DNA of 64,000 bases from Archangium sp. GTDB taxonomy: Bacteria; Myxococcota; Myxococcia; Myxococcales; Myxococcaceae. Position 1 is the stretch's first letter, and every line of letters starts with the position of its first letter. A program made the translations under genes and the position numbers. The notes beneath the pieces are model-generated. The model saw only the letters and a list, made by a program, of their open reading frames with translations, searched no databases and was not told where the DNA came from. The DNA lies in the NCBI GenBank assembly GCA_030681645.1, contig JAUXRX010000059.1, positions 1 through 64,000 of the forward strand, in the 5' to 3' direction. Shown here piece by piece: positions 7,502 through 49,248 of the stretch.

Positions 7502-7526
7502 GGGAGGACACTACACGAACCGTCCT

Positions 7527-7552
7527 CCCTCTCCCCGCAAGCGGGGAGAGGG
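7527..7552. repeat. REP-like palindrome, copy 1
   Basis: Perfect 12-bp arms CCCTCTCCCCGC and GCGGGGAGAGGG with a two-base loop, followed by TCGGGGTGAGGGG (7553-7565). It lies between the divergent quinone oxidoreductase and ATP-grasp genes. The same core recurs at 9351, 13425 and 14495. Confidence 0.8.
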
Positions 7553-7584
7553 TCGGGGTGAGGGGCGTCGTGTATACCCGCGCC

Positions 7585-9334: not shown

Positions 9335-9350
9335 GGTGGCCCCTCACCCT

Positions 9351-9381
9351 CTCCCTCTCCCCGCTCCGCAGGGAGAGGGAG
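9351..9381. repeat. REP-like palindrome, copy 2
   Basis: Exact 11-bp arms CTCCCTCTCCC (9351-9361) and GGGAGAGGGAG (9371-9381) with a nine-base loop, preceded by CCCCTCACC. It lies directly upstream of the acetyltransferase start and downstream of the 9387-10502 gene. Confidence 0.75.
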
Positions 9382-21701: not shown

Positions 21702-21704
21702 GGC
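21661..21704. repeat. 44-bp direct repeat, left copy
   Basis: It matches 22937-22980 at 43 of 44 positions; the only difference is G at 21683 versus C at 22959. It contains the last codons and stop of the radical-SAM gene. Read on the minus strand it would equally encode AITTG plus stop, the end of NnrS. The mismatch is silent in both frames. Confidence 0.9.
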
Positions 21705-22936: not shown

Positions 22937-22980
22937 CGTGGGGCCGGCGCCGTCAGCCCGTGGTGATGGCGGGCTGAGGC
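22937..22980. repeat. 44-bp direct repeat, right copy
   Basis: It matches 21661-21704 at 43/44 positions. The last codons and stop of nnrS (minus strand, stop at 22953-22955) lie within it. On the plus strand it still encodes the last 13 residues and stop of the radical-SAM protein, now detached from that gene. Confidence 0.9.
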
Positions 22981-24074
22981 TGGCCCTGCGCCGGGGCGCG
23001 CGGAGCCCGCGCCACCGCGAGCGCGGTGCTGCCGAGGAAGAGCACGATGGCCGCGGTGTTGCCCCACGAGCCCGCGCGGCGCAGCGCCTCCTCGCCGAGC
23101 AGGTCGCCTGTCAGTCTCAGCGCGAGCGAGGCGTGCAGCAGGCCGAGGTGCACGTAGAAGCGCGCGTGGAAGGGCACGCGCACGCCCAGCACCGCGGGGA
23201 CGATGATCGGCGCGTGGCCGAAGATCATCGAGAACACGAAGCCCACGAAGGTGGCGTGCAGGATCGCGTCGTAGTGAGGGCCCGCCAGCGGGTTTCCAAA
23301 GGCCAGGCCCAGCCCGCCCGCGAGCGCCAACCAGCCGTAGCCCGACAGCAGCGCCAGGGCGATGAAGCGCACCAGGTCGTGTTGGCGCACGGTGTGACGG
23401 GCGATGTCGAAGCGCAGCAGCCAGGCCGCGAGGCCCAGCTCTCCGGCGGCGAGCACCCGCATCCCCAGGTCGCGCTGCCACCGTGTCAGCAGGGCGCCCG
23501 TCACCATCAGCCCCAGCGCCGCCACGAAGAGGGCCACCGCTCGCGTGGAGCGGGGGAGCACCCGGGTCAGCTCGAGCCGCTCGGCGGCGATGGTGCCCAC
23601 CAGGAAGACCACCCAGAGCACCACCACCTCGAACACGGGCCGGCCCAGGGCGAGCAGCACGTTGCCGGCGAGCCAGCTCAGCGCCGCGAGCACCAGCACG
23701 CCGTGGTGAAGCAGGGGCGAGCTCAGCAGCACCCGCACCAGCACCACCACCACCACCGCGCTGCCCGCGCTCAGCAGCCCCGCGCCCACCAGCGGCCGGC
23801 CGACGATCAGCGCCACGGCGCCCGCGCCACACAGCAGCGGCGCGGAGAAGGCCCAGGCCGCGCGCGCCGCGACCGCGCGCTCGAGGGAGATCACCGTGCC
23901 CAGGAAGCCGCTCACCATCAGCGGACCGTGGGCCATCGCGTCCATCGGCGCGCTCACGGCGCCGAGGCGGCTGAGCCCGGTCCACAGCCCGGCGATCAGC
24001 GCGCCCGCGCCCAGCAGCAGCAACGGCACGCGCCGCGCGTGAAGCCCCGGCGCTCTGTGCGCTTCGGCGCCCAT
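22953..24074 (-). CDS. nnrS: NnrS-family membrane protein
   Basis: A 373-aa protein with about twelve hydrophobic helices. NnrS signatures include MDAMAHGPLMVSGFLGTVISLERAVA-type segments near the N-terminus and a late HATFVGFVFSMIFGHAPII with conserved His (heme/copper-associated in the family). NnrS lowers nitrosative stress, probably by limiting formation of dinitrosyl-iron species. ATG 24074 overlaps the DUF2249 stop (ATGA). It is last in a four-gene operon with RIC, MIP18-like and DUF2249 genes. Its 3' end lies in the 44-bp repeat. Confidence 0.85.
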   Translation of the reverse strand: MGAEAHRAPGLHARRVPLLLLGAGALIAGLWTGLSRLGAVSAPMDAMAHGPLMVSGFLGTVISLERAVAARAAWAFSAPLLCGAGAVALIVGRPLVGAGLLSAGSAVVVVVLVRVLLSSPLLHHGVLVLAALSWLAGNVLLALGRPVFEVVVLWVVFLVGTIAAERLELTRVLPRSTRAVALFVAALGLMVTGALLTRWQRDLGMRVLAAGELGLAAWLLRFDIARHTVRQHDLVRFIALALLSGYGWLALAGGLGLAFGNPLAGPHYDAILHATFVGFVFSMIFGHAPIIVPAVLGVRVPFHARFYVHLGLLHASLALRLTGDLLGEEALRRAGSWGNTAAIVLFLGSTALAVARAPRAPAQGQPQPAITTG

Positions 24075-24304
24075 CAGCCGGCTCGACCGACCTGCACCCG
24101 CCACACCTCGGGGCCGCTCTCGAGGTAGCTCCACACGAGCTGGCCGGGCCGCTCGGCCTGCAGCTGGTAGTAGAGCGGCTTCGGGTCGTGGTCGTTCACC
24201 AGCTCGAACGCCCCGCCGGGGGCGAGCGCGTCGAAGGTGCTGAAGATGAGCGGGTGCCGCTCGCGCGGAATGATGGTGCGGACGTCGACGGTGTTTCGGT
24301 TCAT
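24074..24304 (-). CDS. DUF2249 domain protein
   Basis: A 76-aa single-domain protein with the DUF2249 pattern: DVRTIIPRERHPLIFSTFDAL, GGAFELVNDHDPKPLYYQL, then WSYLESGPEVWRVQV. DUF2249 proteins share a TusA/SirA-like fold and are regularly found beside nitrosative-stress genes. It is operonic: overlapping nnrS and 22 bases after the MIP18-like gene. Confidence 0.85.
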   Translation of the reverse strand: MNRNTVDVRTIIPRERHPLIFSTFDALAPGGAFELVNDHDPKPLYYQLQAERPGQLVWSYLESGPEVWRVQVGRAG

Positions 24305-34260: not shown

Positions 34261-35541
34261 ATGCGCGCGTGCCTGGTGATGCTGCTGCTGCTCGCGCCGG
34301 CCGCGCGGGCCGACTTCTTCAACGGCCGCAACCTCCTCATCGGCGAGAAGGCGAGCCTGCTGGGCGGGGCGTTCACCGCGCTCGCCGATGACGCGACCGC
34401 CGGCTACTACAACCCCGCGGGGCTGGTGCAGGCCCCCGGCTTCACCGTGTCTGCGTCGGCCGACATCTACGCGCTGTACCTGCTCACCCGCACCGAGCGG
34501 ATCAACGAGCAGGGCGATCAGCTCGCGCTCTCCTTTCTGCGCACCGTCATCGTCCCCTCGACGTTCGCGCTCTCGTACCGGGTGCACCCGAGGCTGACGC
34601 TGGCGGCCCACGTGTTCAGCCCCGACCGCTTCAGGCTCTCGTCGATCAACTCGGTCGACGCGCCGGTGGTGGCGACCGCGCTGGGCCTGGACAAGACCTA
34701 TGGCGGCCTCTCGCGCTCGGCGCGCTTCGATCAATCGACGGCGTTCTACGGGGTCAGCGGCGGCTTCGCGGTGACCGAGGCGTTCTCCCTGGGGGTGTCG
34801 CTGCACTACCACCTCACCCAGACCAGCCAGGCGCTCGCCTCGACGTACTTCACCCACCCCGACGGCACCTCGCCCGGAGAGCAGGCCACGCTGCAACTGG
34901 ACAACGAGGTCACCTCGGGCGGGCTCATTCCCCAGGTCGGCGTGCTGCTGCGGCTGCCTGCCGGGCTGCGGGTGGGCGTGAACTGGCAGGCCGAGACGAT
35001 CGTCATCCACAGCCAGAACGTGTGGCAGTTGAGCCTGACCTCGCCGCAGGGGCAGGGCTTCGAGTCGGGCACCACGCGCGGCGACACCCGCTACCCCCAC
35101 CGGTTCGCGCTGGGGCTGGCCTGGCAGTCTGAAGCGGTGACGCTGACGCTCGATCTGATCGCCTACGCCCCCCTCGACTACGACGCACCGCACGAGGTGC
35201 TGCGCACGCAGTTCGCCGAGAACCGCCACCGCGAAGACGCGCACTTCGACGCGTCGCTGGGAGCCCAGGTCACGCTCAGCGACATGTTCGTGCTGCGGGG
35301 CGGGCTCTTCACCAACACCTCGAGCGCGTCTGCGCAGTTCGCGGAAGAGAAGATCAACCTCTACGGCGGCGTGCTGGGCCTGGGGGTGCGCAAGGAAGGC
35401 CTCGAGACCGGCTTCGGGATCATGGCGCAGTTCGGCCAGTCACCGTTTCAGCGTGAGAACGAGCAGGGCTTCGAGACGCAGTGGACGCGCTCGCAGCTGA
35501 TGTTCGTGATGGGCGGCTCGCACCGCTTCTTCGAGAAGTGA
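34261..35541 (+). CDS. FadL/OmpP1-family outer membrane transporter
   Basis: A 426-aa protein from ATG 34261 with a signal peptide (CLVMLLLLAPAARA). The FadL signature SLLGGAFTALADDATAGYYNPAGL follows. Alternating beta-strand stretches and an aromatic C-terminus (MGGSHRFFEK, with Phe near the end) fit an outer membrane beta-barrel for hydrophobic compounds. It is divergent from the Hsp70 gene (76 bases between starts). Its last 22 codons and stop lie in a 73-bp sequence repeated at 43038-43110. Confidence 0.88.
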   Translation: MRACLVMLLLLAPAARADFFNGRNLLIGEKASLLGGAFTALADDATAGYYNPAGLVQAPGFTVSASADIYALYLLTRTERINEQGDQLALSFLRTVIVPSTFALSYRVHPRLTLAAHVFSPDRFRLSSINSVDAPVVATALGLDKTYGGLSRSARFDQSTAFYGVSGGFAVTEAFSLGVSLHYHLTQTSQALASTYFTHPDGTSPGEQATLQLDNEVTSGGLIPQVGVLLRLPAGLRVGVNWQAETIVIHSQNVWQLSLTSPQGQGFESGTTRGDTRYPHRFALGLAWQSEAVTLTLDLIAYAPLDYDAPHEVLRTQFAENRHREDAHFDASLGAQVTLSDMFVLRGGLFTNTSSASAQFAEEKINLYGGVLGLGVRKEGLETGFGIMAQFGQSPFQRENEQGFETQWTRSQLMFVMGGSHRFFEK

Positions 35542-35546
35542 GTCAC
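35474..35546. repeat. 73-bp direct repeat, left copy
   Basis: It matches 43038-43110 at 72 of 73 positions; the difference is G at 35483 versus T at 43047. It covers the 3' end of the FadL-like gene, its stop codon and five more bases, GTCAC. Confidence 0.92.
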
Positions 35547-35578
35547 GGAAGTACCGACCATGAGAAGGTGAACGCCCC

Positions 35579-36964
35579 TTGCCCGCGCTGAAGCTCCTCC
35601 TGGTCGAAGACGACCGCATCGTCCGCATTCCCGTTCGCGACGCACTGGTCGACGCCGGCTATCTCGTCACCGACTGCGCTGATGGCACGAGCGCGCAGCG
35701 CCTGCTCACCTCCGAGACCTTCGACATCGTGCTGTCCGACGTTCGGCTCCCCGGCGTCGACGGGCTCTCGCTCTTTCGCCTCGCCCGGGGGCTGCAACCG
35801 CCTCCTGCCGTGGTGTTGATGACCGCGTACGCCGACACGGATCACGCGGTCACCGCCATGCGCGAGGGCGTGCGGGACTACGTGCTCAAGCCCTTCGAGA
35901 TGGACGAGCTGCTGCTCCGCCTCGGCTCCGTGCGCGACGAGGTGCAGTTCCGGCTCCGCGTGGGGCGCGCGCAGCTCATGGAAGCCAGCGAGCTCGGTCA
36001 GCAGCTCGCCGGCGCCACGCCTGCGATGGCGCAGCTGCGGGAGCGCCTCGAGGCCGCTGCCGCCAGCGACATCGCCGTGCTCCTGGCCGGCGAGACCGGC
36101 ACGGGGAAGGACCTCGCCGCCCGGCTCGTTCACCAGCGCAGCGCGCGCGCCGAGCGGCCCTTCGTCGCCGTCAATTGCGCCGCCATCCCCGAGAACCTCT
36201 TCGAGTCCGAGATGTTCGGCCACGAGCGGGGGGCCTTCACCGGCGCCGAGCGCCGTCGCGCCGGGCGCTTCGAGGCCGCCGACCGGGGCACGCTCTTCCT
36301 CGACGAGGTGGGCGAGCTCTCGTTACCCAACCAGGCCAAGCTGCTGCGCGCCATCGAGAGCTCGAGCTTCGAGCCCGTCGGCGCCACCGAGACGAAGCGC
36401 GTCGACGTGCGCGTCATCAGCGCCACCAACCGCGATCTCTCCGACGCCGTCACCACCGGCGCCTTCCGGCGCGATCTCTTCTACCGGCTCAAGGTCATCG
36501 ACGTGCGCCTGCCGCCGCTGCGTGAGCACCGGGCTGACATTCCGCTGCTGGTGGGCAAGTTCCTCACCGACATCGCGGGCCGCCTGGGCAAGCCGACGCA
36601 GGTGCTCTCGCCCGCGGCGGCGGCGGCGCTGGCCACCCACGACTATCCCGGCAACGTGCGCGAGCTGCTCCACGCGCTCGAGCGCGCCGTGGCGCTCGCG
36701 CGCGGCAAGCCGATCTCGCTCGAGCACCTGCCCATCGAGCTGGCGCGGGTGATGCCCCCTTCGGCTGACACCGGCCTGCGCCCGCTGGAGGAAGCCGTCG
36801 AGCAGTTCGAGCGCCAGTACATCGAGCGCGCGCTCGAGCAGGCCGAGGGCCATCGCGGCCGCGCCGCGTCGTTGCTGGGCATCTCGCGAAAGAGCCTGTG
36901 GGAACGGCTCCGCGACGCGCAGGCCGAGGCTCAGCTCAAGAAGGGGAAGCCTCCGAGCCCTTGA
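35579..36964 (+). CDS. NtrC-family sigma-54-dependent response regulator
   Basis: A 461-aa protein starting at TTG 35579; no in-frame ATG or GTG fits upstream. The receiver domain has phosphoacceptor Asp in IVLSDVRLPGVDG and Lys in DYVLKPFEMD. The AAA+ domain has Walker A GETGTGKD, the sigma-54-contact loop GAFTGA, Walker B LFLDEVGEL and an arginine-finger region FRRDLFYRLKV. The C-terminus is a Fis-type HTH (HRGRAASLLGISRKSLWERL). It is convergent with the kinase gene, overlapping by 29 bases. It probably activates the sigma-54 promoter at 39441. Confidence 0.93.
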   Translation: MPALKLLLVEDDRIVRIPVRDALVDAGYLVTDCADGTSAQRLLTSETFDIVLSDVRLPGVDGLSLFRLARGLQPPPAVVLMTAYADTDHAVTAMREGVRDYVLKPFEMDELLLRLGSVRDEVQFRLRVGRAQLMEASELGQQLAGATPAMAQLRERLEAAAASDIAVLLAGETGTGKDLAARLVHQRSARAERPFVAVNCAAIPENLFESEMFGHERGAFTGAERRRAGRFEAADRGTLFLDEVGELSLPNQAKLLRAIESSSFEPVGATETKRVDVRVISATNRDLSDAVTTGAFRRDLFYRLKVIDVRLPPLREHRADIPLLVGKFLTDIAGRLGKPTQVLSPAAAAALATHDYPGNVRELLHALERAVALARGKPISLEHLPIELARVMPPSADTGLRPLEEAVEQFERQYIERALEQAEGHRGRAASLLGISRKSLWERLRDAQAEAQLKKGKPPSP

Positions 36965-38366
36965 GCCACAGGGTGGCGACGGTGCCGCCGCCCGCCGGGA
37001 AGGTGAAGTCGAGCTCGCCGCCGTGAGCGTCGATGATGGTGCGGGTGACCGACAGCCCCAGCCCGGTGCCCTCTCCCGGGGGCTTGGTGGTGAAGAACGG
37101 CGTGAGGATGCGCTCGCGGATGGCCGGTGGGATTCCCGGCCCGTCGTCTTCCACCGCGATGCCCAGCGCCCCGCGCCGCCGCACCAGGCGCAGGCGCACC
37201 TCGCCGCCCTCGGGGCTCGCGTAGCCCGCGTTGAGGAGCAGGTTGACCACCGCCTGGCCGAGGCGATGCCGGTCGGCTTGCACCACGCCGTTCGCGGCCA
37301 CGCCCTCGAGCACGCACCGCACCCGGCGCCGCGCCAGCTGGGACTGCACCAGGTGCGCCGCCCCCTGGGCCAGGGTGAGGGTCGCGATGGGCTCGAGCAG
37401 GGGCGGGTGGGGGCGCGCGAAGTCGAGCAGCCCCTTCACCACGTCTTCGATTCGCCCCAGCCCCTCGTTCATGAGCTCGAGGTACTCGCGCCGCTTCTCC
37501 TCGGGCAGGTCCGGGCGTGAGAGCCGGTGAATGCAGTTCTTCATGCCGGCCAGGGGGTTGTTCACCTCGTGCGTGACGCCCGCCACCAGCGAGCCCAGCG
37601 CGGCCAGCCGCTCGGTCTCCACGCTCTTGAGCCGCGACCGTTCCTGTTCCTGGTGGGCGGCGCGCAGGCGCAGCAGCATCTGGTTGAAGCGATCGCCCAG
37701 CACGGCGAGTTCATCGCTGCCGCGCGTCTCGACCACCGGCTCGAGCTCCCGCGAGGGATCGAAGCGTTCGGCCGAGACCAGGATGTCGCCGATGGGCCGG
37801 GCGATGCTGCGCCCGAAGACGAAGGCCGCGACGAGGCCGGCGAGGATCATCGCCACCGCCAGCAGGCTCAGCTCCAGTGTCAGCTGGCGGCGCGTGTCGG
37901 ACACGATGCCCATGTCCAGGCCGAGGCGGAGCTCGCCCACGTTTCCGAGGATCGGCTCGGCGAGGTCGAGCGTGCGGGTCGCGCCATTGACCACCACCAC
38001 CGGTGCGCTGCTGCCGTCGCGGCGCAGGGCGGAGAGGGCGGCTGGCGTGCTGGCGCCGAAGGACGAGGCCACCACCAGCCCGCCGCGGGTGATGAAGCAG
38101 TAGGAGACGCTGGTGCCACGGGTGGAGACGGCGGAGGACACGATGGCGTCGAGCGCCACCACGTCGTTGACCAGCAGGGCGTCGGTGGACTGATCGGCCA
38201 GCAGCCGCGCGATGCTCCGGCCCAGCTTTTCCTGCTCGAGGGTCAGCGCGCGCCCCGCGATGCGGTTGCCCAGGGCGAGGTGCACGGCGTGCATCCCCAC
38301 CACGCCGACGGCGGCCAGCGCCGCCAGCTTCATCCACAAGCGCACGCGCAGCCTGCGAGGACTCAT
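36936..38366 (-). CDS. Membrane histidine kinase
   Basis: A 476-aa sensor kinase. Two membrane helices (about residues 12-33 and 165-190) bracket a periplasmic sensor domain. A HAMP segment (FGRSIARPIGDILVSAERF) follows. Then come the H-box LVAGVTHEVNNPLAGMKN, N-box LLLNAGYASPEGG, G1 VEDDGPGIPPAIRERI and G2 GEGTGLGLSVTR. It is coupled by ATGA overlap to the upstream PhnD-like lipoprotein gene. It is the probable partner of the NtrC-type regulator encoded convergently. Confidence 0.92.
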   Translation of the reverse strand: MSPRRLRVRLWMKLAALAAVGVVGMHAVHLALGNRIAGRALTLEQEKLGRSIARLLADQSTDALLVNDVVALDAIVSSAVSTRGTSVSYCFITRGGLVVASSFGASTPAALSALRRDGSSAPVVVVNGATRTLDLAEPILGNVGELRLGLDMGIVSDTRRQLTLELSLLAVAMILAGLVAAFVFGRSIARPIGDILVSAERFDPSRELEPVVETRGSDELAVLGDRFNQMLLRLRAAHQEQERSRLKSVETERLAALGSLVAGVTHEVNNPLAGMKNCIHRLSRPDLPEEKRREYLELMNEGLGRIEDVVKGLLDFARPHPPLLEPIATLTLAQGAAHLVQSQLARRRVRCVLEGVAANGVVQADRHRLGQAVVNLLLNAGYASPEGGEVRLRLVRRRGALGIAVEDDGPGIPPAIRERILTPFFTTKPPGEGTGLGLSVTRTIIDAHGGELDFTFPAGGGTVATLWLKGSEASPS

Positions 38367-39292
38367 GGGGCGGGCTGCACGACGTCGTAGGCCGAGTCGA
38401 AGAGCCCGGGGAGCGCGAGGGCGAAGCGGTTGATGCGCAGCGAGCTGAGCAGCGCGGCGCCCTCGGGATCTTCCGAGAGCTCGAGCAGCACCTCGCGCAG
38501 CCCGGCCCGGGTACCCCGGGAGAGCTTCTGCGAGGCGACCACCGGCGTCATGCCGAACTCGGGTGAGCGCTGAATGACGCGGACCTTGTCGAGCAGGGCG
38601 GGGTCCTTCTCGAGCAGGTGCTGGAAGACGATGCTGTGCACCGAAGCGCCATCGACGACGCCACGCGCAACCGCCGAGACCGAACGATCGTGGCTGCGGG
38701 TGAAGGACGTCGCCCCGAAGAAGGTCTCAGGCGTCTTCCCCTGCGCGCGCAGCTCGTGCACCACCCAGGCGCGCCCCGTGAGCGAGAGCTCGTCGGTGAA
38801 GGCGAAGCGCCTGCCCTCGAGCTGTCGCAGCGACTGGGCCTGGCTCGAGGCGGGCACGATGATCAACGACTGGTATGCATCGGAGCCGTTGATGATGGGC
38901 ACGGCGACCACCTCGACCGCGCCCGGGTCTCGTCGCTGCAGCTCGAGGTACCCGCCGGTGCACAGCAGCGCAGCGTCGAGCTCGCCCTTCATCAGCAGCT
39001 CGTTGACCTCCGCGTAGGTTCGTCGCTGCACGAACTCGAGCTCCATTCCACCGCCGAGGCGGTGCGCGACCTCTCCGAAGAGCCGTGACCAGGCCGCGTA
39101 GGTGCCGCTCGGCGATTCCATGCCCGCCACCGAGACGCGGAACGGCTTCGTCGTCGCGGTGGCCGGCCGGGCCAACGGCAACACCTCGGCCTGCACCGGC
39201 CGAATGTCGACGTGCACCTCGCGGAAGGGGCTCTGCTCACAGGCGCTCAGGCCCAGGAGCGCCGTCGTCACCCAGGCCTTCCATCCACCCAT
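38363..39292 (-). CDS. PhnD-like substrate-binding lipoprotein (sensor input)
   Basis: A 309-aa predicted lipoprotein (lipobox LGLSAC). The fold is the phosphate/phosphonate-binding PhnD type: FRVSVAGMESPSGTYAAWSRL, MELEFVQRRTYAEVNELL, LDAALLCTGGYLEL, and LRQLEGRRFAFTDELSLTGR. No ABC permease or ATPase is near. Instead the stop overlaps the kinase start, so it probably feeds the kinase a ligand signal, as the PhnD-like half of TtrS does for tetrathionate. Confidence 0.85.
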   Translation of the reverse strand: MGGWKAWVTTALLGLSACEQSPFREVHVDIRPVQAEVLPLARPATATTKPFRVSVAGMESPSGTYAAWSRLFGEVAHRLGGGMELEFVQRRTYAEVNELLMKGELDAALLCTGGYLELQRRDPGAVEVVAVPIINGSDAYQSLIIVPASSQAQSLRQLEGRRFAFTDELSLTGRAWVVHELRAQGKTPETFFGATSFTRSHDRSVSAVARGVVDGASVHSIVFQHLLEKDPALLDKVRVIQRSPEFGMTPVVASQKLSRGTRAGLREVLLELSEDPEGAALLSSLRINRFALALPGLFDSAYDVVQPAP

Positions 39293-39404
39293 GCCTCATC
39301 AGTGGCAGCAGCGGCGTCGCGCCGCAATCGTCATGAGGGCTCGCCGAACACTTCCGTGAATGTTCCCCATGCGAAACGCCCGTCAGCCCCGAAGACGGGT
39401 GACT

Positions 39405-39420
39405 GTTACCGCGCGGTAAC
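39405..39420. promoter_or_regulatory. 16-bp palindrome, candidate activator site
   Basis: GTTACCGCGCGGTAAC is a perfect palindrome placed between the divergent PhnD-like and cytochrome genes. It is centred about 55 bases upstream of the start site expected from the sigma-54 element. The nearby NtrC-type regulator is the natural candidate to bind it. A smaller inverted repeat (CCCGTC 39379-39384, GACGGG 39394-39399) lies just upstream. Confidence 0.55.
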
Positions 39421-39440
39421 GCCTCCGCACGCAGCGCGCG

Positions 39441-39456
39441 TGGCGCGCCCAGTGCA
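39441..39456 (+). promoter_or_regulatory. Sigma-54 (-24/-12) promoter of the decaheme cytochrome gene
   Basis: TGGCGCGCCCAGTGCA fits the consensus TGGCACG-N4-TTGCA with the essential GG and GC at exact spacing; only two consensus bases differ. Transcription would begin near 39467, leaving a leader of about 50 bases with GGAGG before ATG 39520. Confidence 0.65.
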
Positions 39457-39519
39457 TCTGCGGCCGGCGGGATTCACAGCGCTCCGCACCTCGCGGACCT
39501 GTCGGGTCGGAGGTCTGCA

Positions 39520-42500
39520 ATGAGACTCACTGCGTTCGGTTGTCTGCTCGGGTCGCTGGTGTTGGCCATGTCGTGCGAGGGCCCGGCCGGCCCCTCGGGT
39601 CCCGATGGCACCGACGGGATGAACGGCGCGAACGGCGTCAACGGCACCAACGGCGCCAACGGGGCCGATGGCACGGACGGCATCAACGGCGCGAACGGAG
39701 ACGCAGGCCCGGCCGGACCGCAGGGCCCCGCGGGGCCGCAGGGTGACGCGGGTCCCCAGGGGCCCCAGGGTCCGGTGGGCCCGAACGCGACCACGCTCAC
39801 CCGGTGGGACGACCTGCCGGGCGTGGCGGTGGTCATCACGGGCGTGGCGGGCGGCACCGGCCCCGGGGGCAATCTCCGCGCGGGTGACACGGCGCGAGTC
39901 ACCTTCACGGTGAAGCGGAAGGACGGCCGCAACGTGGCGCTCAGCGAGCTGACGTCCACGGCCATCTACATGTCGGGCCCCACCAGCAACTACCAACGCG
40001 TCATCGCCTCGCAGTCAGACGTGAAGACGCGTTCGGTCGACACCGGCGGCGGCACGTGGACGTACACGTTCGCTGCGCCCATTCCCGCGACCTATCTGGC
40101 GCCGCTCAACGACTCACCGGCGCTCGATGCGGGCTCGGGCGAGCTCACCGGCCAGGCGCTGCTCGACGGCACGTACACGGTGGCGATGACCGCGTACCAG
40201 AACTTCACCATCGACGGAGTCGTCTACCGTGACACCGGCAACGCCACGGCCGACTTCCTCTTCGGTGGCGCGACGACGTTGGTGAAGCGCGCGGTCGTCG
40301 GCGAGGCCAACTGCGAGCAGTGCCACACGCAGCTGCGGGCGCACGGGGGCTCGCGCAACGACCTGGGCGTCTGCCTCACCTGCCACACCGCCGGCGCAGA
40401 GGACCGCAACGTGGCCACCGTCGAGGGCGGCACGCCGGGCGTGTCCATCGACTTCTCGGTGATGGTGCACCGCATTCACAACGCAGCCCACCTGCCGTCG
40501 GTCGTCGGCGTGGGTGTCACCGCCACGGGCGCGCCTGACTACGCGGCTGCCTCGAAGCCCTACAAGATGGTCGGGTACAACAACTCGGTCATCGACTTCT
40601 CCGACTTCGCCTTCCCGGTGATGCCCTCTGCGTACGCGGCCTTCCTCTACGACACGGCGGGCACGACCTACACCGGCGCTGCGGGTAACGGGTTCATGCC
40701 CCGCGACACCGGGTGGTCGGCGCTGACGCCGACGGGAAAGATGAAGAGCGACAAGGTGCGCACCGGCCTGGTGGCCTGCAGCAAGTGCCACGGCGTGCCC
40801 ACGGTGCTCGACGGCGGCGTGGCGCCTGCGCAGGGCAACAACTTCGAGACCGTCATCAATCGCAAGGTGTGCGGCTCGTGCCACGACTCCATCGACTTCT
40901 CGTCGGCGACCGGCGGCCACCTGGCCCAGCTCAACGACAGCCTGTGCGCGACCTGCCACGGCCCCACGGGAACCCACCCGGTGCGGGCGATGCACCTGCA
41001 CCCGTATGAGAACCCGGCCTTCAACACGGGGGTGAACCTCGGCCTCACCGCGATGACTCCCGGCACCGGCGCGGGCGGCAATCACCAGGCAGGCGACCCC
41101 TTCGAGGTCACCTTCTCGGTCACCGATAACGCGGCGGCCAACGTCCCCGTGATGTCGCTCACCCGCCTGCAGATCATCGTGGTCGGCCCGACGTCGAACC
41201 GGCAGATCATCGTGCCCAACGGCAACCCGTACGACTTCGCCTTCCGCAAGTCGTCGCCCTTCACCGGCAACGGCACCATCTCGGCCCCGGCGGTGGCCGC
41301 AGGCGCGGTCGCGCAGGTGCTCGCCGTGGTGATGACGGGCGCCACCACCTTCGACGTGGTGGGCTCGGTGTCGGCCCCGCTGACGGCCCAGAACGTGGGC
41401 ACGGCGGTGACCTACAACGGCGTCACCTTCACCGTGACCGCGGGCACGACGGCCTTCGTCGCAAACGACCGCTTCTTCATCGAGGTGGTGCCGCCGGCCG
41501 CGACCTACACCTTGAGGGTGCCGCTCGACGTCAGCCTGGAGCGCGTGGGCGCGGCGACCGGAGGTGCTGACGTGTTCAACGTTGGTAACCTCCCGCTCTA
41601 CTGGGGCCGGCAGGTGGTGATGGAGCGCACCGCGCTCCTCGGCGCCCCCGGCGCGCTGGGCCAGGCCACCGCCGCCCACCAGCGCTACGCGGTGCTCGAC
41701 CTCGCCGCCAACGCCGGGCTCGCGGTCGGTGACCGCGTGGTGTTCGACCTGGGCCTCGCCACCGAGGAGTACGCGCAGCTGGGCCGGCTGCAGAGCACCG
41801 ACGACGTGACGCTCTTCGACCTCGGCGCCTTCGACCGCATCTGGTTCACCACGCCGCTGCGGTACGCCCACGCGGCGGGGGGCGCCGTGCAGGAGGCGAC
41901 CTTGAGCAACCGCCGCGAGGGCACGGACTACACTGTGTCCAACGCTGCGACGGGTGAGCTCACCGCCCTCGCGGGCCGCTTCACCGCGGGCAACGCGGTG
42001 GTGGTCAGCTACCGCACCGACGGCCGCTTCGGCTGGAAGCGCTCGCCTGGCGACGCCACGCAGAGCCTCTTCCCCGCGCCCATCGCGGACTCCGACGAGG
42101 TGGACGAGTCGTGGGGTGACTGGAAGGGCCTGCCGCTGCTCGACGGCACGTACACGGTGGCCATGTGGGCGAACAGAGACTTCACCGTCACGCCCGCCGG
42201 CACGGTCACCACTACCCAGGCGTGGAACGTGTGGAACAACGACAACACCACCTACCGGATGATGGCGAAGCCCGCGCAGAAGAACTTCCTCTTCGGCGGC
42301 GCCACCACGGTGCAACCGCGCGCGGTCATTTCGTCGGGCGACAACTGCAACGCCTGTCACACCGACCTGGCGGCGCACGGCTTCGGCCGCCGCGGCCTCG
42401 ACACCTGCCTGGTGTGCCACAACGCGCCCGGCCTCGAAGACGGGCCCAAGTTCACCTACGCGTCCTGGTACGTGCGGCCCACGCCCGGCGCGACGATGGA

Positions 42501-42876
42501 CTTCCGCACCCTGGCGCACCGCGTTCACGCGGGGAAGGAGCTGAGCCGCCCCTACGAGGTGAACGGCGTGTTCCTCGGCGTGCCCTACCCGGTGACCTAC
42601 GACACCGTAGGCTTCCCTTCGTTCAAGGGCGGGGTCTCGGAGTGCACCAAGTGCCACGGCGCCACCAACACCGCGTGGAAGGAGCCGGCTCCGCGCAGCC
42701 ACCCGCTCGCGCCCGCGCCGGTGCGCACCTGGGCCGCGGTCTGCAGCTCGTGCCATGACTCTGCGGCGGCCGAGACGCACTTCTTCGTGCAGTCGTACAA
42801 CGGCAGCGAGTCGTGTGCCGTGTGCCACGGCCCTGGCAAGGAGTTCTCGGTCGAGCTCTCACACAAGGTCCGCTGA
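39520..42876 (+). CDS. Collagen-tailed OmcA/MtrC-family decaheme c-type cytochrome
   Basis: A 1118-aa exported multiheme protein. The start has GGAGG upstream and a signal ending LAMSC, probably a lipoprotein. Residues about 20-85 are collagen-like Gly-x-y triplets (GPAGPSGPDG; GPQGPAGPQGDAGPQG). Ten CxxCH heme motifs follow: CEQCH, CLTCH, CSKCH, CGSCH, CATCH, CNACH, CLVCH, CTKCH, CSSCH, CAVCH, in two groups of five with a beta-rich region between. This matches the OmcA/MtrC surface cytochromes that pass electrons to external acceptors. No MtrA or MtrB gene is adjacent. It has a sigma-54 promoter. Confidence 0.93.
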   Translation: MRLTAFGCLLGSLVLAMSCEGPAGPSGPDGTDGMNGANGVNGTNGANGADGTDGINGANGDAGPAGPQGPAGPQGDAGPQGPQGPVGPNATTLTRWDDLPGVAVVITGVAGGTGPGGNLRAGDTARVTFTVKRKDGRNVALSELTSTAIYMSGPTSNYQRVIASQSDVKTRSVDTGGGTWTYTFAAPIPATYLAPLNDSPALDAGSGELTGQALLDGTYTVAMTAYQNFTIDGVVYRDTGNATADFLFGGATTLVKRAVVGEANCEQCHTQLRAHGGSRNDLGVCLTCHTAGAEDRNVATVEGGTPGVSIDFSVMVHRIHNAAHLPSVVGVGVTATGAPDYAAASKPYKMVGYNNSVIDFSDFAFPVMPSAYAAFLYDTAGTTYTGAAGNGFMPRDTGWSALTPTGKMKSDKVRTGLVACSKCHGVPTVLDGGVAPAQGNNFETVINRKVCGSCHDSIDFSSATGGHLAQLNDSLCATCHGPTGTHPVRAMHLHPYENPAFNTGVNLGLTAMTPGTGAGGNHQAGDPFEVTFSVTDNAAANVPVMSLTRLQIIVVGPTSNRQIIVPNGNPYDFAFRKSSPFTGNGTISAPAVAAGAVAQVLAVVMTGATTFDVVGSVSAPLTAQNVGTAVTYNGVTFTVTAGTTAFVANDRFFIEVVPPAATYTLRVPLDVSLERVGAATGGADVFNVGNLPLYWGRQVVMERTALLGAPGALGQATAAHQRYAVLDLAANAGLAVGDRVVFDLGLATEEYAQLGRLQSTDDVTLFDLGAFDRIWFTTPLRYAHAAGGAVQEATLSNRREGTDYTVSNAATGELTALAGRFTAGNAVVVSYRTDGRFGWKRSPGDATQSLFPAPIADSDEVDESWGDWKGLPLLDGTYTVAMWANRDFTVTPAGTVTTTQAWNVWNNDNTTYRMMAKPAQKNFLFGGATTVQPRAVISSGDNCNACHTDLAAHGFGRRGLDTCLVCHNAPGLEDGPKFTYASWYVRPTPGATMDFRTLAHRVHAGKELSRPYEVNGVFLGVPYPVTYDTVGFPSFKGGVSECTKCHGATNTAWKEPAPRSHPLAPAPVRTWAAVCSSCHDSAAAETHFFVQSYNGSESCAVCHGPGKEFSVELSHKVR

Positions 42877-42922
42877 AGGCTGACCGACCGCGCCGGTCGC
42901 GCGGCGAAGCGCGGAGACCCCT

Positions 42923-42956
42923 GTGCCCCCGACGACTCTCCTGGCGTCGGGGGCAC
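42923..42956 (+). terminator. Strong hairpin after the decaheme cytochrome gene
   Basis: GTGCCCCCGACG (42923-42934) and CGTCGGGGGCAC (42945-42956) form a perfect 12-bp stem, 47 bases after the cytochrome stop. Only a short TT follows, so it is a terminator-like or RNA-stabilising hairpin. The rest of 42877-43037 shows no gene. Confidence 0.7.
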
Positions 42957-43037
42957 TTGCATGTGCGCAGCGAGCTCGCCGCGCATGCGCCCCGGCCGCG
43001 CCGCGAACGCTTGATCGTCGCAGCAGGCAGCGGCGCC

Positions 43038-43110
43038 AGACGCAGTTGACGCGCTCGCAGCTGATGTTCGTGATGGGCGGCTCGCACCGCTTCTTCGAGA
43101 AGTGAGTCAC
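43038..43110. repeat. 73-bp direct repeat, right copy (detached FadL 3' end)
   Basis: It matches 35474-35546 at 72/73 positions. It encodes the last residues of the FadL-like protein (SQLMFVMGGSHRFFEK) and stop without the rest of that gene. It ends at the stop codon of the pseudokinase gene (43107-43109, minus strand) plus one base. Confidence 0.92.
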
Positions 43111-44339
43111 CTGCGCAGGTAGCTGCGGCGCCAGCCCGCCAACTGCTTCGCCACGTCCTTGCGGTCCTGCTCGGTGGGCGAGCCGGTCAGGCGCAGCCGC
43201 TGCTTGTTGAGCACGAAGAGCGCCTGGTCGACGTCTTCTCCCGGGCGCACCTGCTTGTAGAAGCGGGACTCGAGGCGGGAAATCTCTGCCGCGAGGGCGC
43301 TGGCGCTGGGCACCCCCTGCACCCGCCGCGGCACGCCCGGGCTCGGCGGGCGCGGCCCGGTCTGCACGGGCCCGGGGACCGCCTGCGTCTCGGCCTGCTC
43401 AGGCTCTTCCTCGAGCAGCAGCTCCTCTTCCTCCGGGGGAAGCGGAGCCTCGACCTCGGGGACCACGGGCGTGCCCGGCGGCCAGAGGTACAGCGCCGCG
43501 CTTCCTGCGAGCACCAGCGCCACCGCGGCCAGGCCCAGCACGGGCCCGCGCCGCCGCGCCGGGGCTGGCGTCGACGGGGTGGGAGGCGGCGCGGCCGGGC
43601 GGTTCACCTTGAGCTGAGTCGCGGGGCCGGCGTCGAGCAGCGAGAGGGCCAGCGCGAACTCCTTGCGCGCCGACGTGGCGTCCGTCACGGCCCGGTCGAG
43701 CAGCTCGCGGAGCAGGCGATCGACCGGCTCGGGGATGCCGCTCCCCAGCGGCGGGGGCGCGCGTTCCCCCAGCTCGGCCCCGGTGAGGAGCGCGAAGCCC
43801 AGCTCACCCAGCTCGTAGAGATCGCCCTCGATGCTCGCGCCGCGCTTCGCCAGCCCGAAGTCGATGAGCTTCACCCCGCCGCCCACCACGAAGATGCTCG
43901 AGGGGCCGAGGTTGCCGTGCGGCACGGCCCACGCGTGCGCCGCCTCGAGCACCTCAGCCACCTGGCCGAGGATCTTCACGGCGTCGGCGGCGGAGAACTT
44001 GCCGCGGCTCTGCATCAGCTGATCGAGCGACTCGCCCTCGAGCAGCTCCATCACCCGGTAGCGCCGCCCATCGGGGAGCTGGCCGAAGTCGGACACGTTG
44101 GCGATGCCGGCGCACTTGATCGCGTTGCTCGCCTTCACCTCCTGGTCATCGCCGGTGAGCCCGGTGCGCAGCACCTCGAGCGTCACGTCTCTGCCCGCCT
44201 GGCGGGCGCGGTAGATCGTACCGAAGCGGCCCTCGCCCACCGGCGCGCCCACTTCCAGCCCACCGACTTGCGTGCCCACCAGCCGGTCCACGTGGACCTG
44301 GGTGGAGTCGGGGATCGGCTGGAAGGGAGCGGGGGCCAA
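43107..44339 (-). CDS. Ser/Thr protein kinase-like protein (predicted pseudokinase)
   Basis: A 410-aa protein. The kinase fold is clear: Gly-rich loop VGEGRFGTIYRA, hinge VMELLEGESLDQLM, DFG motif LIDFGLAKRG. Catalytic residues are lost: the VAIK Lys is Glu (VTLEVLR), and HRDLKPxN reads HGNLGPSS, removing the catalytic Asp and metal-binding Asn. One membrane helix (about residue 275; VLGLAAVALVLAGSAALYLW) is followed by an acidic linker and a helical C-terminal domain. The start is uncertain; TTG 44339 is assumed. Such proteins are probably scaffolds or allosteric sensors. Confidence 0.82.
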   Translation of the reverse strand: MAPAPFQPIPDSTQVHVDRLVGTQVGGLEVGAPVGEGRFGTIYRARQAGRDVTLEVLRTGLTGDDQEVKASNAIKCAGIANVSDFGQLPDGRRYRVMELLEGESLDQLMQSRGKFSAADAVKILGQVAEVLEAAHAWAVPHGNLGPSSIFVVGGGVKLIDFGLAKRGASIEGDLYELGELGFALLTGAELGERAPPPLGSGIPEPVDRLLRELLDRAVTDATSARKEFALALSLLDAGPATQLKVNRPAAPPPTPSTPAPARRRGPVLGLAAVALVLAGSAALYLWPPGTPVVPEVEAPLPPEEEELLLEEEPEQAETQAVPGPVQTGPRPPSPGVPRRVQGVPSASALAAEISRLESRFYKQVRPGEDVDQALFVLNKQRLRLTGSPTEQDRKDVAKQLAGWRRSYLRR

Positions 44340-45496: not shown

Positions 45497-46171
45497 ATGA
45501 ACGACTTGCCGAGGGCTGCCCTCGCGCCTTATGAGCCGCGCATGGGGCAGCGCCGCATTCTCTGGAGCCTGCTCGTTCTGCTGGCCGCCTGTGAGACCAG
45601 GCCCCCCGCGCCGGGCTCGGCGAGCCAGCAGGCCGCGCTCACCACCGCTACGCTGGGGGGGCTGATCCGCAAGACGCCCCTGGTCGCGCACGTGAAGGTG
45701 GTCTCGGCGACCGGCCGCCCGGGGACGATCGGCACCCAGCAGACCGAGGCCTTCTTCACCGACCTCACGCTGCAGGTCCTCACCTCCATCCACGGGGCCG
45801 CAGACTCGCTGCTGCTCACCACGCTCGGAGGCAGGGTGGGCGCGCGCGAGCTGCACGTGAGCGGGCAGGTGGTGCTCGAGGCGGGAGACGAGGCGATCGT
45901 CTTCGTCGACCCGGCAGTCTCCCTGCACCCGTTCGTGGGAGGGCAGGGCGGCGTGCTGCCGGTGAAGGAAGGCCGCGTCTACGCCTTCGACGGCCGGCCG
46001 CTGGTGGAGGTGCGGTCCGAGGGCTTCGTCTTCGGCCGCGCGCCCGGTGCACCTGCCCTCGCGCCCGCCCTCGAGCCTCGCGGCACGGCGGCGGCGGCCC
46101 GCGTGCTTCCTCCCGAGGGCGCCGCGCTGACCCTCGTCGAGGTGATGGCGGCCCTGAAGGCGCTGCCGTGA
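45497..46171 (+). CDS. Lipoprotein of unknown function
   Basis: A 224-aa predicted lipoprotein. ATG 45497 is preferred because GGGAG lies six bases before it; ATG 45542 would give a shorter signal. The lipobox is LLVLLAAC. The mature part is beta-rich (LVAHVKVVSATGRPG; DEAIVFVDPAVSLHPFVGGQGG), recalling small secreted domains expressed with myxobacterial metalloproteases. The GTGA overlap with the downstream metalloprotease gene supports a functional pair. Confidence 0.65.
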   Translation: MNDLPRAALAPYEPRMGQRRILWSLLVLLAACETRPPAPGSASQQAALTTATLGGLIRKTPLVAHVKVVSATGRPGTIGTQQTEAFFTDLTLQVLTSIHGAADSLLLTTLGGRVGARELHVSGQVVLEAGDEAIVFVDPAVSLHPFVGGQGGVLPVKEGRVYAFDGRPLVEVRSEGFVFGRAPGAPALAPALEPRGTAAAARVLPPEGAALTLVEVMAALKALP

Positions 46172-49100
46172 AGCGCGCCGCGATCTTCCTGGTGCTGTGC
46201 TCCGGGCTCGCCGCCCAGGCGTGGTCGACCCGGGTGTGCTCGACGAACTCGACGCTGCAGCCCAGCTACCCCGGCGGCAGCGTGTGGCCCCTGCAGTACC
46301 TCTCGAACATGCCCTCGGGCAGCAGCGGCCGGCTCGCGGTCTCGAGCGCGATGCAGTCGTGGAACTCCATCGTCGGAGCGTTCGACAACCTGAGCGCTCC
46401 CACCGGAGGCTTCGGCTTCTGCACCAAGCCTGACAACGCCGGGGTCAGCGTCATCGGGTGGGACGACGGCACCTGTCACGCCTGGGGCCCGTCGGAGGTC
46501 GGGGTCGCGGTGGTGTGGACGCAGAGCTGCTCGATCGTGAAGGAGGCCGTGTACTTCAACAGCAACTTCCCCTTCTCGACGGTGGAGCTCGAGGCGACCG
46601 CGCTCCACGAGCTGGGCCACTACCAGAACGCGGCGCACGATTGGTACGAGCTGTCGATCATGGGCTACTCGGATACGGACTTCACGTTCCTGACGGCCGC
46701 TGATCATTCGTTCCTGCGCGGCGTGTGGAGCTCGGGGAACACCACGCTGCCTGACCTGTACTTGAATCGCATCGTCGCCAGCAGCCCGATCCTCCCCGAC
46801 CAGCGGTCGATGGTGCAGTCGGCGCCGCCCACCTGCTCCGGCTCGTGCGCGGACCTCCAGGCTGGAGACACCATCCGCGTGCAGCTCTCCTACGGCAACG
46901 CCGGCTCGACGGCGGCGGGCCCCTTCGACCTCGAGATGCGGCTCGGGTCTCGGGTCATCGGCACCTGGACGCAGTCCAGCTACCCCGCGCACTCCCAGGA
47001 CACGTACTGGTTCGTGGCCACCGTGCCCGCGGGCGTGCCGCCCGGCAGCTACACCCTGAGCGTGGAGATCGATCCCTCCGGGGTGATCAACCAATCCAGC
47101 GGGCCCACCTCGGGTGAGCTCGTCAGCTTCTCCGGCTTCGTGGTGCGCACCCCGGCGGGGTGGACCTGCAGCCCCGCTCGCTACAACGCGCTCGATGGGT
47201 GCGACTGCGCGTGCGGCGTCGCAGACCCGGACTGCACCTCGACCACTCCGGTGGCGCGCGGCTGCGGCGACGCCAACACCTGCACCGACGATCGCTGCAA
47301 CGCCGCGGGGACCTGCGTCTACCCCGCCAACACCGCCTCGTGCGAAGACGGGCTCTACTGCAGCACCAGCGATCGCTGCGCCGCCGGCCTCTGCGCCGCG
47401 GGGACGGCGCGTGATTGTTCGGCGCAGTCGAACGCGTGCAACCTCGGGGTGTGCGACGAGGCCCAGCGCGCCTGCGTGCGCTCACCGCGCAACCAGGGCG
47501 GGGCCTGCGACGACGGCCTCTACTGCACCGTCACCGACCTCTGCGCCGCGGGCACCTGCAGCGGCAGCGCGCGGGACTGCTCGGCCCTGAGCTCGGCCTG
47601 CGCCGCCGGCACCTGCAGCGAGAGCCTGGACCGCTGCGTGGCGTCGCCCATCAACCAGGGGCAGAGCTGCGACGACGGGCTGCGCTGCACCACCGCCGAC
47701 TCGTGCAGCACGGGCACCTGTGCGGGCACGGCGGTCGACTGCAGCTCGCTGAACACCCCATGCACCCGCGGCGAGTGCGACCCCAACACCGGCGCCTGCG
47801 TCAGCGTGCCGCTCGCCAACGGCACCGCGTGCGAAGACGGAGCGTTCTGCACCACCGGCGATCGCTGCACCGCCGGCGCGTGCGTGGCGGGCGTGGCGCG
47901 TGATTGTTCTGCGCAGTCGAACACCTGCAACCTCGGCGTGTGCGACGAGGCGCTGAACGTCTGCGCGCCCGCTCCGCGGAACGAGGGCGGCGGTTGTGAC
48001 GACGGGCTCTTCTGCACCACCGGCGACAGCTGCGCCGCGGGGTTGTGCAGCGGTGGCCCACGCGACTGCTCGGCGTCGAGCTCGGCCTGCGCCGCCGGCA
48101 GCTGCAGCGAGAGCCTCGACCGTTGCGTCGCGGCGCCCATCAACCAGGGGCAGACCTGTGACGACGGCCTGCGGTGCACCACGGGCGACTCGTGCAGCGC
48201 CGGCAGCTGCGGGGGCGCGGCCGTCGACTGCTCGTCGCTGAACACCGCGTGCACGCGCGGCGAGTGCGACCCCAACACCGGCGCCTGCGTCAGCGTGCCG
48301 CTCACCAACGGCACCGCGTGCAGCGACGGCGTGTATTGCACCGTCGGTGAGACCTGCGCCGCGGGCGTCTGTGGTGGTGGCCAGGCGCGCACCTGCGCCT
48401 CGCTCGATTCCACCTGCAGCGTGGGGGTCTGCGACGAGGCGGCCGGGGCCTGCCGCGCCAGCGCGCTCAACGAAGGCGGCGCCTGCAGCGACGGTCGCTT
48501 CTGCACCGAGAACGACACGTGCGTGGCGGGCGCGTGCACGGGCGCCGCGAAGGACTGCTCGACGCTGAACGGGGCGTGCACCCGCGGCACCTGCGACGAC
48601 GTCGCGCAGCGCTGCGTCGCCGCGCCCGCGAACGAAGGGCAGGGCTGCGACGACGGGGCCTTCTGCACCACCGGCGACCGGTGCGCGGCGGGCTCGTGCG
48701 TGGGCGCGCGCAGAGACTGCTCGCAGCTCACCACGGGCTGCACGCTGGGCGTCTGCGACGAGACGGCCCGCGCGTGCGCCGGCCAACCGCGGCCGGAAGG
48801 CCAGGCCTGTGACGACGGTCAACGCTGCACCGTGGGTGAGTCGTGCCGCGGCGGCGTCTGCCAGGGGCGCCCGAGGGACTGCAGCTCGCTCGACTCGGCC
48901 TGCGTGGTGGGCACCTGCGACGCCACCACCGGCGCGTGCGCGGCGGTGCAGGTGCCTGACGGCACCGCGTGCGATGACCGCGCGGCGTGCACCGCAGCAG
49001 ATGCATGCAGGCAGGGGGTGTGCGCGGGAGCGGCGCTCGATTGTTCGCAGCTCAACGACGCGTGCCACTACGGCAGGTGTGACGAGCAGACCGGCCAGTG

Positions 49101-49248
49101 CGCGGTGTTCGGCCAGGTCGGGCCCTGCGACGCACCTTCGGGGTGCGGCTGTGGCGCAGCGCCGCTCCCGGGCGCGGCGTGGGTGGGCCTGCTGCTGGTG
49201 CTGCTGCGGGCGCGCCGACGCTCCGCCCCGAAGGACGTCGCGTTGTAG
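46168..49248 (+). CDS. Secreted metalloprotease with Cys-rich repeats and MYXO-CTERM-like tail
   Basis: A 1026-aa exported protein (signal KRAAIFLVLCSGLAAQA; GTG start). The metzincin-like zinc motif HELGHYQNAAHD places His147, Glu148, His151 and His157. A beta-sandwich domain spans about 200-330. Then at least eleven Cys-rich units of the form CxDGxxCTxxDxCxxGxC run to about residue 965. The C-terminus has a GCGCGA motif, a membrane helix (PGAAWVGLLLVLL) and a basic tail (RARRR), as in MYXO-CTERM surface-anchored proteins. It is coupled to the upstream lipoprotein. Confidence 0.88.
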   Translation: MKRAAIFLVLCSGLAAQAWSTRVCSTNSTLQPSYPGGSVWPLQYLSNMPSGSSGRLAVSSAMQSWNSIVGAFDNLSAPTGGFGFCTKPDNAGVSVIGWDDGTCHAWGPSEVGVAVVWTQSCSIVKEAVYFNSNFPFSTVELEATALHELGHYQNAAHDWYELSIMGYSDTDFTFLTAADHSFLRGVWSSGNTTLPDLYLNRIVASSPILPDQRSMVQSAPPTCSGSCADLQAGDTIRVQLSYGNAGSTAAGPFDLEMRLGSRVIGTWTQSSYPAHSQDTYWFVATVPAGVPPGSYTLSVEIDPSGVINQSSGPTSGELVSFSGFVVRTPAGWTCSPARYNALDGCDCACGVADPDCTSTTPVARGCGDANTCTDDRCNAAGTCVYPANTASCEDGLYCSTSDRCAAGLCAAGTARDCSAQSNACNLGVCDEAQRACVRSPRNQGGACDDGLYCTVTDLCAAGTCSGSARDCSALSSACAAGTCSESLDRCVASPINQGQSCDDGLRCTTADSCSTGTCAGTAVDCSSLNTPCTRGECDPNTGACVSVPLANGTACEDGAFCTTGDRCTAGACVAGVARDCSAQSNTCNLGVCDEALNVCAPAPRNEGGGCDDGLFCTTGDSCAAGLCSGGPRDCSASSSACAAGSCSESLDRCVAAPINQGQTCDDGLRCTTGDSCSAGSCGGAAVDCSSLNTACTRGECDPNTGACVSVPLTNGTACSDGVYCTVGETCAAGVCGGGQARTCASLDSTCSVGVCDEAAGACRASALNEGGACSDGRFCTENDTCVAGACTGAAKDCSTLNGACTRGTCDDVAQRCVAAPANEGQGCDDGAFCTTGDRCAAGSCVGARRDCSQLTTGCTLGVCDETARACAGQPRPEGQACDDGQRCTVGESCRGGVCQGRPRDCSSLDSACVVGTCDATTGACAAVQVPDGTACDDRAACTAADACRQGVCAGAALDCSQLNDACHYGRCDEQTGQCAVFGQVGPCDAPSGCGCGAAPLPGAAWVGLLLVLLRARRRSAPKDVAL

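Follow-up and report, generated by a model that had tools for sequence, protein, structure and literature searches.

Genomic islands are flanked by direct repeats, the attachment (att) sites, which rebuild the 3′ end of a gene or of a tRNA gene, and an integrase is expected on such elements. Insertion sequences and transposons leave a short target duplication of fixed size, 2–14 bp. How genes are inserted between crowded neighbors in bacteria without an integrase is poorly explained so far. Here we describe a candidate for such an event in the myxobacterium Archangium sp., namely a block of four genes coding for a two-component system, a binding protein and a decaheme cytochrome. The block lies between two copies of a 73 bp direct repeat in a stretch of 64,000 nucleotides (assembly GCA_030681645.1, contig JAUXRX010000059.1, positions 1 to 64,000), which we call the window. 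Among the papers listed in searches of the open literature, judged by titles and the beginnings of abstracts and with few subscription papers included, none treats the insertion of genes into bacterial genomes with a duplicated target tens to hundreds of base pairs long; we do not claim that none has been published.

Several described systems resemble the locus in part, as far as the relevant excerpts of the respective papers go. For transposed genes of Arabidopsis, which are flanked by single-direct repeats of 30–287 bp, the insertion of circles was proposed (Woodhouse et al. 2010, PMC2869330). There, too, genes which are not transposons are accompanied by genic direct repeats whose length ranges from tens to hundreds of base pairs, and in a sister species the orthologous target site often contains the repeat sequence. 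The differences are that the host is a plant, that the authors propose circles and that target sites were demonstrated there but not for our block. In rice, patch-mediated break repair duplicates the target when adjacent nicks are repaired (Vaughn and Bennetzen 2014, as cited in PMC7971508), and the share of tandem duplications drops above about 125 bp (PMC7971508). Target duplication by adjacent-nick repair is the common element, whereas the rice events treated there are mainly plain tandem duplications with no kilobase cargo between the copies. At double-strand breaks, Streptomyces ambofaciens captures DNA between 30 bp and 18.8 kb in length (PMC5869714). This is likewise a bacterium which inserts DNA at sites of break repair, but the breaks were induced, the donor DNA was endogenous and the parts of the paper at hand describe no long target duplications. 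Finally, 10–18% of the variable segments of E. coli, S. aureus and S. pyogenes have flanking direct repeats, for which illegitimate recombination was invoked (PMC2884548). These small gene-scale differences with direct repeats are comparable to our case, but the repeats are mostly shorter than 30 bp and were read as deletion points.

The two copies of the repeat in the window, both given on the forward strand, are located at 35474–35546 and 43038–43110. They are identical at 72 of 73 positions and offset by 7,564 bp. In 64 kb, chance alone would produce about 6e-28 pairs as good as this one, and the two copies are the sole matches at E ≤ 0.001 across the genome of 10.24 Mb. The left copy comprises the last 68 nucleotides of an outer-membrane barrel gene (34264–35541, forward strand; stop codon TGA at 35539–35541), then a G and then TCAC, which is the complement of the stop codon of a convergent kinase gene plus one base. 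The right copy carries the same barrel gene end without its gene and reaches up to the kinase gene itself (43107–44339, reverse strand). TCA at 43107–43109 is the stop codon of this gene, so that four bases of the repeat lie inside it. In the initial annotation the repeat had been described in just this way, as a 72/73 pair about 7.5 kb apart with the true 3′ end of the left gene in one copy and the same end, deprived of its gene and ending at the kinase stop codon, in the other. The coordinates and stop codons bear this out, and the similarity is far beyond chance. The gene labels require some adjustment. The left gene, called FadL-like, is an outer-membrane barrel gene of the PorV/FadL type with no Pfam match and with weak PorV-type NCBIfam matches below the cut-off. 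The right gene is a kinase gene, and the designation as pseudokinase rests on residues judged by eye.

The copies differ at a single position, at which the right copy carries a T, changing Trp to Leu. At this position the left copy as well as the barrel genes of the relatives G003, G004 and G005 have a G; the G-to-T change is private to the right copy. At those sites of the 73 bp at which this genome and the relatives diverge, both copies match each other, and each copy resembles the other more than it does any relative compared. Thus, the duplication arose in this lineage, and judged by these alignments it postdates the split from relatives whose barrel protein is 78–82% identical. On the other side of the block, the kinase homologs of G007 (WRRSYLRR*), G009 (WRHSYLRR*) and G003 (WRRSYLRP*), three of six, stop at the same residue as the kinase of the window; the other three (G002, G004, G010) extend a few residues past it. 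By this comparison the C-terminus is native, and therefore the kinase gene has not had its end overwritten by the right copy.

We surveyed 1,684,135 bases on seven contigs, about 16% of the genome (G000), for repeat pairs of at least 30 bp with at least 90% identity and a spacing of 250 bp to 30 kb. The raw result of 90 direct and 44 inverted pairs consists mostly of multi-copy sequences; 20 direct pairs and 1 inverted pair are present in two copies only. Eleven of the 20 were set aside as paralogs or tandem domains, having a flank at least 50% identical, and the sole unique inverted pair has similar flanks as well. This leaves nine isolated direct pairs with unrelated flanks and no isolated inverted pair. 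Four of the nine have the anatomy of a two-gene junction, with both neighbors whole and extra DNA between them. The repeats of these four measure 45, 73, 50 and 238 bp and the inserts 1,231, 7,491, 1,699 and 647 bp, respectively. A more sensitive scan of gene ends recovers all four cases among 40 direct and 7 inverted matches; most of the 40 are paralogs by eye. The other five isolated pairs are not of the junction type: a tRNA-Phe end, an 81 bp repeat around 15 kb, a 66 bp end common to two genes, a 36 bp repeat with one copy in the 15 kb region and the other in the next gene to the right, and 32 bp of a repeated domain within one gene. In 0.4 Mb of genome G012, a sample too small for a comparison of rates, there are four isolated direct and two inverted pairs, and none of the four direct pairs shows the two-gene anatomy. 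Twelve loci of relatives (134 kb) yielded no repeat pair.

One of the additional cases lies about 14 kb upstream of the 73 bp block in the same window; the initial annotation did not list it with the 73 bp block. Its left 45 bp copy (21660–21704, forward strand) contains the 42-nucleotide 3′ end of a radical SAM gene (20643–21701) and overlaps the end of the convergent gene. The right copy (22936–22980, 44/45 identical) contains the 28-nucleotide 3′ end, including the stop codon, of that convergent gene (22953–24134). Between them lies a single gene on the reverse strand (21811–22872) coding for 353 amino acids with no match in Pfam or PHROGs; its codon score per residue is 0.22 versus 0.43 for both neighbors. 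The convergent gene has no homolog within up to 1.5 kb on either side of 24 other places with radical SAM homologs, among them distant paralogs and truncated stretches. The 50 bp case (48/50) spans the junction at which an RND efflux gene ends and an EamA transporter gene begins, on the contig of the window, termed C27 (75456–75505 and 77205–77254; L084:11321–11370, 13070–13119). The gene within the 1.7 kb insert scores low in codon usage (0.08 per residue). In G005 a remnant of 35 residues of the efflux gene is found directly upstream of the EamA gene, in frame and without an insert (57% identity, E about 5e-6), that is, a partial empty site at one of ten loci of relatives. The 238 bp case (231/238) unites two convergent gene ends on another contig, C26 (220496–220733 and 221381–221618; L162:496–733, 1381–1618), with 0.65 kb between the copies; G003 has the right gene (81%) with no left gene adjoining.

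In these three cases (45, 50 and 238 bp) the left copy includes 28–34 nucleotides of the gene that follows the insert, and the end of the gene preceding the insert is present in the right copy. Since this much of the right gene is contained in the repeat, the two genes must originally have met in an uninterrupted junction. With both gene ends present in each copy, a single event which explains the arrangement is an insertion into the continuous junction accompanied by its duplication. For the 73 bp block we rather favor the same explanation as the best single-event one, because the repeat holds both gene ends, the kinase stop codon is native, the cytochrome of the block is an extra copy (see below) and the anatomy recurs three more times. 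The initial annotation had proposed an insertion with duplication of the junction which left both neighbors whole; its observation was right and its proposal is probably right too, and is strengthened by the recurrence, with the reservation that no empty site was found.

As the most likely route we suggest repair, by which the insertion could have proceeded in the following steps. In the ancestor the barrel gene and the kinase gene would have been directly convergent with their stop codons one base apart. Two nicks on opposite strands some tens of bases apart, or a break with long overhangs, would have opened the junction. Both ends would have been filled in, which yields a direct repeat, and a DNA fragment could then have been captured between the filled ends by end joining. 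In this way the segment with the two-component system, the binding protein and the cytochrome would have been inserted and 73 bp duplicated. Afterwards the left copy would complete the barrel gene and the right copy the kinase gene, and no dedicated recombinase would be required. Inferred elements of this scheme are the junction in its empty state, the donor of the inserted DNA, the break and the enzymes of its repair. The repeat length varies (45, 50, 73, 238 bp), which makes one recombinase with a fixed stagger unlikely; staggered breaks followed by fill-in and end joining would give duplications of variable length. The genome encodes a Ku gene (290 amino acids). Nevertheless, the end-joining route itself is put forward tentatively, as a possibility rather than a likelihood.

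Several observations weigh against the insertion with junction duplication. In the 238 bp case all six differences in the reading frame of the left gene are silent and at third positions, five of them outside the right gene. The chance of these five silent changes, calculated by hand, is about 0.004 if all changes occurred at random in the copy without the gene and about 0.02 if some are allowed in the gene copy. This points to the import of a related allele and not to a fresh fill-in. The block could have arrived on a DNA molecule, perhaps a circle, which carried it together with the junction of a related strain, and a single crossover would have left one copy of the shared stretch on each side and both genes whole. 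Such an integration by homology would explain long repeats of variable length without a recombinase, the differences in the 238 bp case are of the kind seen between functional alleles, the single difference in the 45 bp case is silent in both genes, and circle insertion has been proposed for the Arabidopsis genes with flanking direct repeats (PMC2869330). Yet the donor must already have had the junction next to the block, and all three differences in the 73 bp and the 50 bp cases alter the protein of the left gene, as expected if a fresh right copy decays. We consider this route rather unlikely.

It is further unfavorable that the kinase side contributes only TCAC to the 73 bp repeat; these 4 bp could be microhomology at a junction. 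The block and the barrel gene might then be old neighbors, and a stray barrel end of 73 bp would have been pasted beside the kinase gene by template switching, which would agree with the finding that in no relative seen is the barrel gene beside the kinase gene. This explanation fails on the sister cases, in which the repeat has 28–34 nucleotides of the right gene, and if the orientation of pasting were random, inverted pairs should have arisen as well, yet the survey contains no isolated one; it is quite improbable. Upstream of the right copy there are, moreover, weak in-register matches to the barrel gene (16/30, 27/60 and 36/90), an excess equalled by 0.7%, 2% and 5% of 3,000 random stretches for 30, 60 and 90 positions. 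This could be the trace of a longer second copy of the barrel gene, and the right copy would then be the last remnant of a complete second gene. Remnants of genes do persist, as the left-gene remnant in G005 demonstrates. There is, however, one point at which the identity falls from 99% almost to the background level, and upstream of the right copy we found no in-register protein match to the barrel gene and no clear further homology. A decayed second barrel gene is in our view barely credible.

An integrative island whose recombinase acted in trans or was lost would have the repeats as attL and attR at the 3′ end of a gene. As in the att-repeat islands, the 73 bp repeat rebuilds the 3′ end of the target gene, and the survey does contain a case of this sort, the 48 bp repeat of a tRNA-Phe end. 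In contrast to such islands, there is no integrase match in the block and no plasmid match by megablast, and the repeats have several unrelated core sequences spanning two genes; four such cores would need several recombinases. Inserts as small as 0.65–1.7 kb also speak against an island, which we regard as improbable. The four block proteins gave no match to an integrase or transposase in Pfam, NCBIfam and PHROGs, in agreement with the initial annotation; no search was made for an integrase that acts in trans. An insertion sequence or composite transposon is not supported: there is no transposase match, the duplications measure 45–238 bp, and terminal inverted repeats were not found, the longest exact inverted match within the end 100 bp being 8 compared to an average of 6.7 in shuffled sequences.

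The empty site of the 73 bp block was not seen in any genome searched, which also has to be counted against its insertion with junction duplication, and in the 50 bp case nine of the ten loci of relatives have neither the left gene nor a remnant of it beside the right gene. The barrel gene is present at length in three of 95 other genomes of the family (search at the DNA level), all of the same genus. Three of the five genomes of the genus (G003, G004, G005) have a close ortholog, and two of the 90 others give short matches only. The neighborhoods of the barrel gene in these three relatives are unlike each other and unlike the window, and therefore synteny is uninformative. Within the stretches compared, the barrel gene stands beside the kinase gene in no relative, and at six loci with kinase homologs neither the barrel gene nor the block is adjacent, three of these stretches being only 3–5 kb long. 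The comparison suggested in the initial annotation, a search among relatives for directly convergent barrel and kinase genes with a single copy of the 73 bp, thus gave no instance. Since the gene order around both genes is little conserved, the missing empty site neither supports nor refutes the insertion. As a side observation, the surroundings of the barrel gene are unrelated between four species of the genus (including L012, L013 and L014, from G005, G004 and G003, respectively), as if the gene moved often.

A further point on the unfavorable side is that three of the four junction cases are located on the 84 kb contig of the window. The probability of such clustering is 0.0005 if the cases are placed at random and about 0.007, calculated by hand, given one case as the starting point. 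C27 may be a hot region or may be unusual as a contig. Tight junctions between convergent genes abound on this contig, with 9 of 11 pairs. The assembly has draft status, with an estimated contamination of 6.66%. The tetranucleotide distances of C27 are 0.080–0.089, which is high among the values of the other contigs (0.048–0.125) but within their range, and the idea of a contaminant contig is not supported; a stretch of G005 has 0.097, so that a contaminant of the same genus is not distinguishable in this way.

The block between the repeats consists of four genes in an insert of 7,491 bp. A response regulator with receiver, sigma-54 activator and helix-turn-helix domains, assigned by profile matches, starts with TTG (35579–36964, forward strand). 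It is followed on the reverse strand by a HAMP-HisKA-HATPase sensor histidine kinase (36936–38366; Pfam match) and a phosphonate-type substrate-binding protein (38363–39292). The latter matches PF12974 with 185 bits versus a Pfam cut-off of 27, stays under the cut-off of the NCBIfam PhnD equivalog and appears by eye to be a lipoprotein. It has no close homolog among the 95 other genomes of the family, the best match being about 32%. The fourth gene (39520–42876, forward strand) codes for a decaheme cytochrome of the OmcA/MtrC family with a collagen-like N-terminus and ten CXXCH motifs (TIGR03507, 273.9 bits versus a cut-off of 209.3). Upstream of it lies a perfect 16 bp palindrome, a candidate activator site (39405–39420), the one match in the window at up to three mismatches, with 0.16 expected. 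A candidate −24/−12 (sigma-54) site with one mismatch (39441–39456, forward strand) is weak, as a scan of the window gives 89 sites versus 70 expected. Of the set listed in the initial annotation, the binding protein, the kinase, the sigma-54 activator and the decaheme cytochrome are thus retained, while the regulated promoter is plausible only. The PHROGs matches of the block proteins are generic regulator and kinase domains as well as tail-fibre families, and the latter match the cytochrome in its N-terminal portion, collagen-like stretch included.

A second copy of the cytochrome gene is present in this genome on contig C47, with 81% DNA identity to the block copy. The C47 gene is 83–86% identical to a cytochrome gene of G003, and about 6 kb of downstream DNA align at about 80%. 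The C47 copy is thus syntenic with G003 and is the native ortholog; the block copy is the extra, diverged one. As the repeat is recent, we infer that the cytochrome of the block was most likely imported from elsewhere and not duplicated from C47 at the time of insertion. A search of the wider genome contigs with the cytochrome gave three loci (two in G003, one in Planctomycetota), and the other three block genes had no match in the DNA compared. We rejected a foreign origin by composition, as there is no step in G+C content and the codon scores are near native, and likewise an origin from a plasmid, as megablast gave no match.

If the insertion with junction duplication holds, a readable scar, direct repeats over both gene ends, would allow counting such events across genomes with and without Ku, and in the present case it would date the recent gain of a sensor-controlled surface cytochrome. 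More speculatively, a Ku-bearing myxobacterium might gain genes repeatedly without any enzyme of a mobile element: staggered breaks would be filled and foreign fragments captured, and at tight junctions only those insertions which duplicate the junction (45–238 bp) would survive since they keep both neighbors whole. We hold this general scheme to be possible rather than likely. Several such scars in one genome merit a systematic count, the present cases being few and from one draft genome.

Some further repeats were observed. The 48 bp repeat of the tRNA-Phe 3′ end on C47 (301797–301844 and 302746–302793; L121) surrounds about 0.9 kb with one called protein that has no Pfam match, and the region looks like a classic island remnant. 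On C26 (370278–385594) the 81 bp repeat of a gene 3′ end (90%) surrounds 15 kb of mostly poorly scored genes, and eight proteins scanned there gave no integrase by Pfam. Over 0.48 Mb from C27 and C47 together, a REP-like family has about 20–30 copies; it is common on C47. A short interspersed repeat in the window (7525–7567, 9338–9381 and 13410–13452) is common to G003 and G004; in G003 one copy lies directly after the kinase homolog. Finally, tandem repeats of about 489 bp (47325–48656) are located inside a Cys-rich gene of the window (46168–49248).

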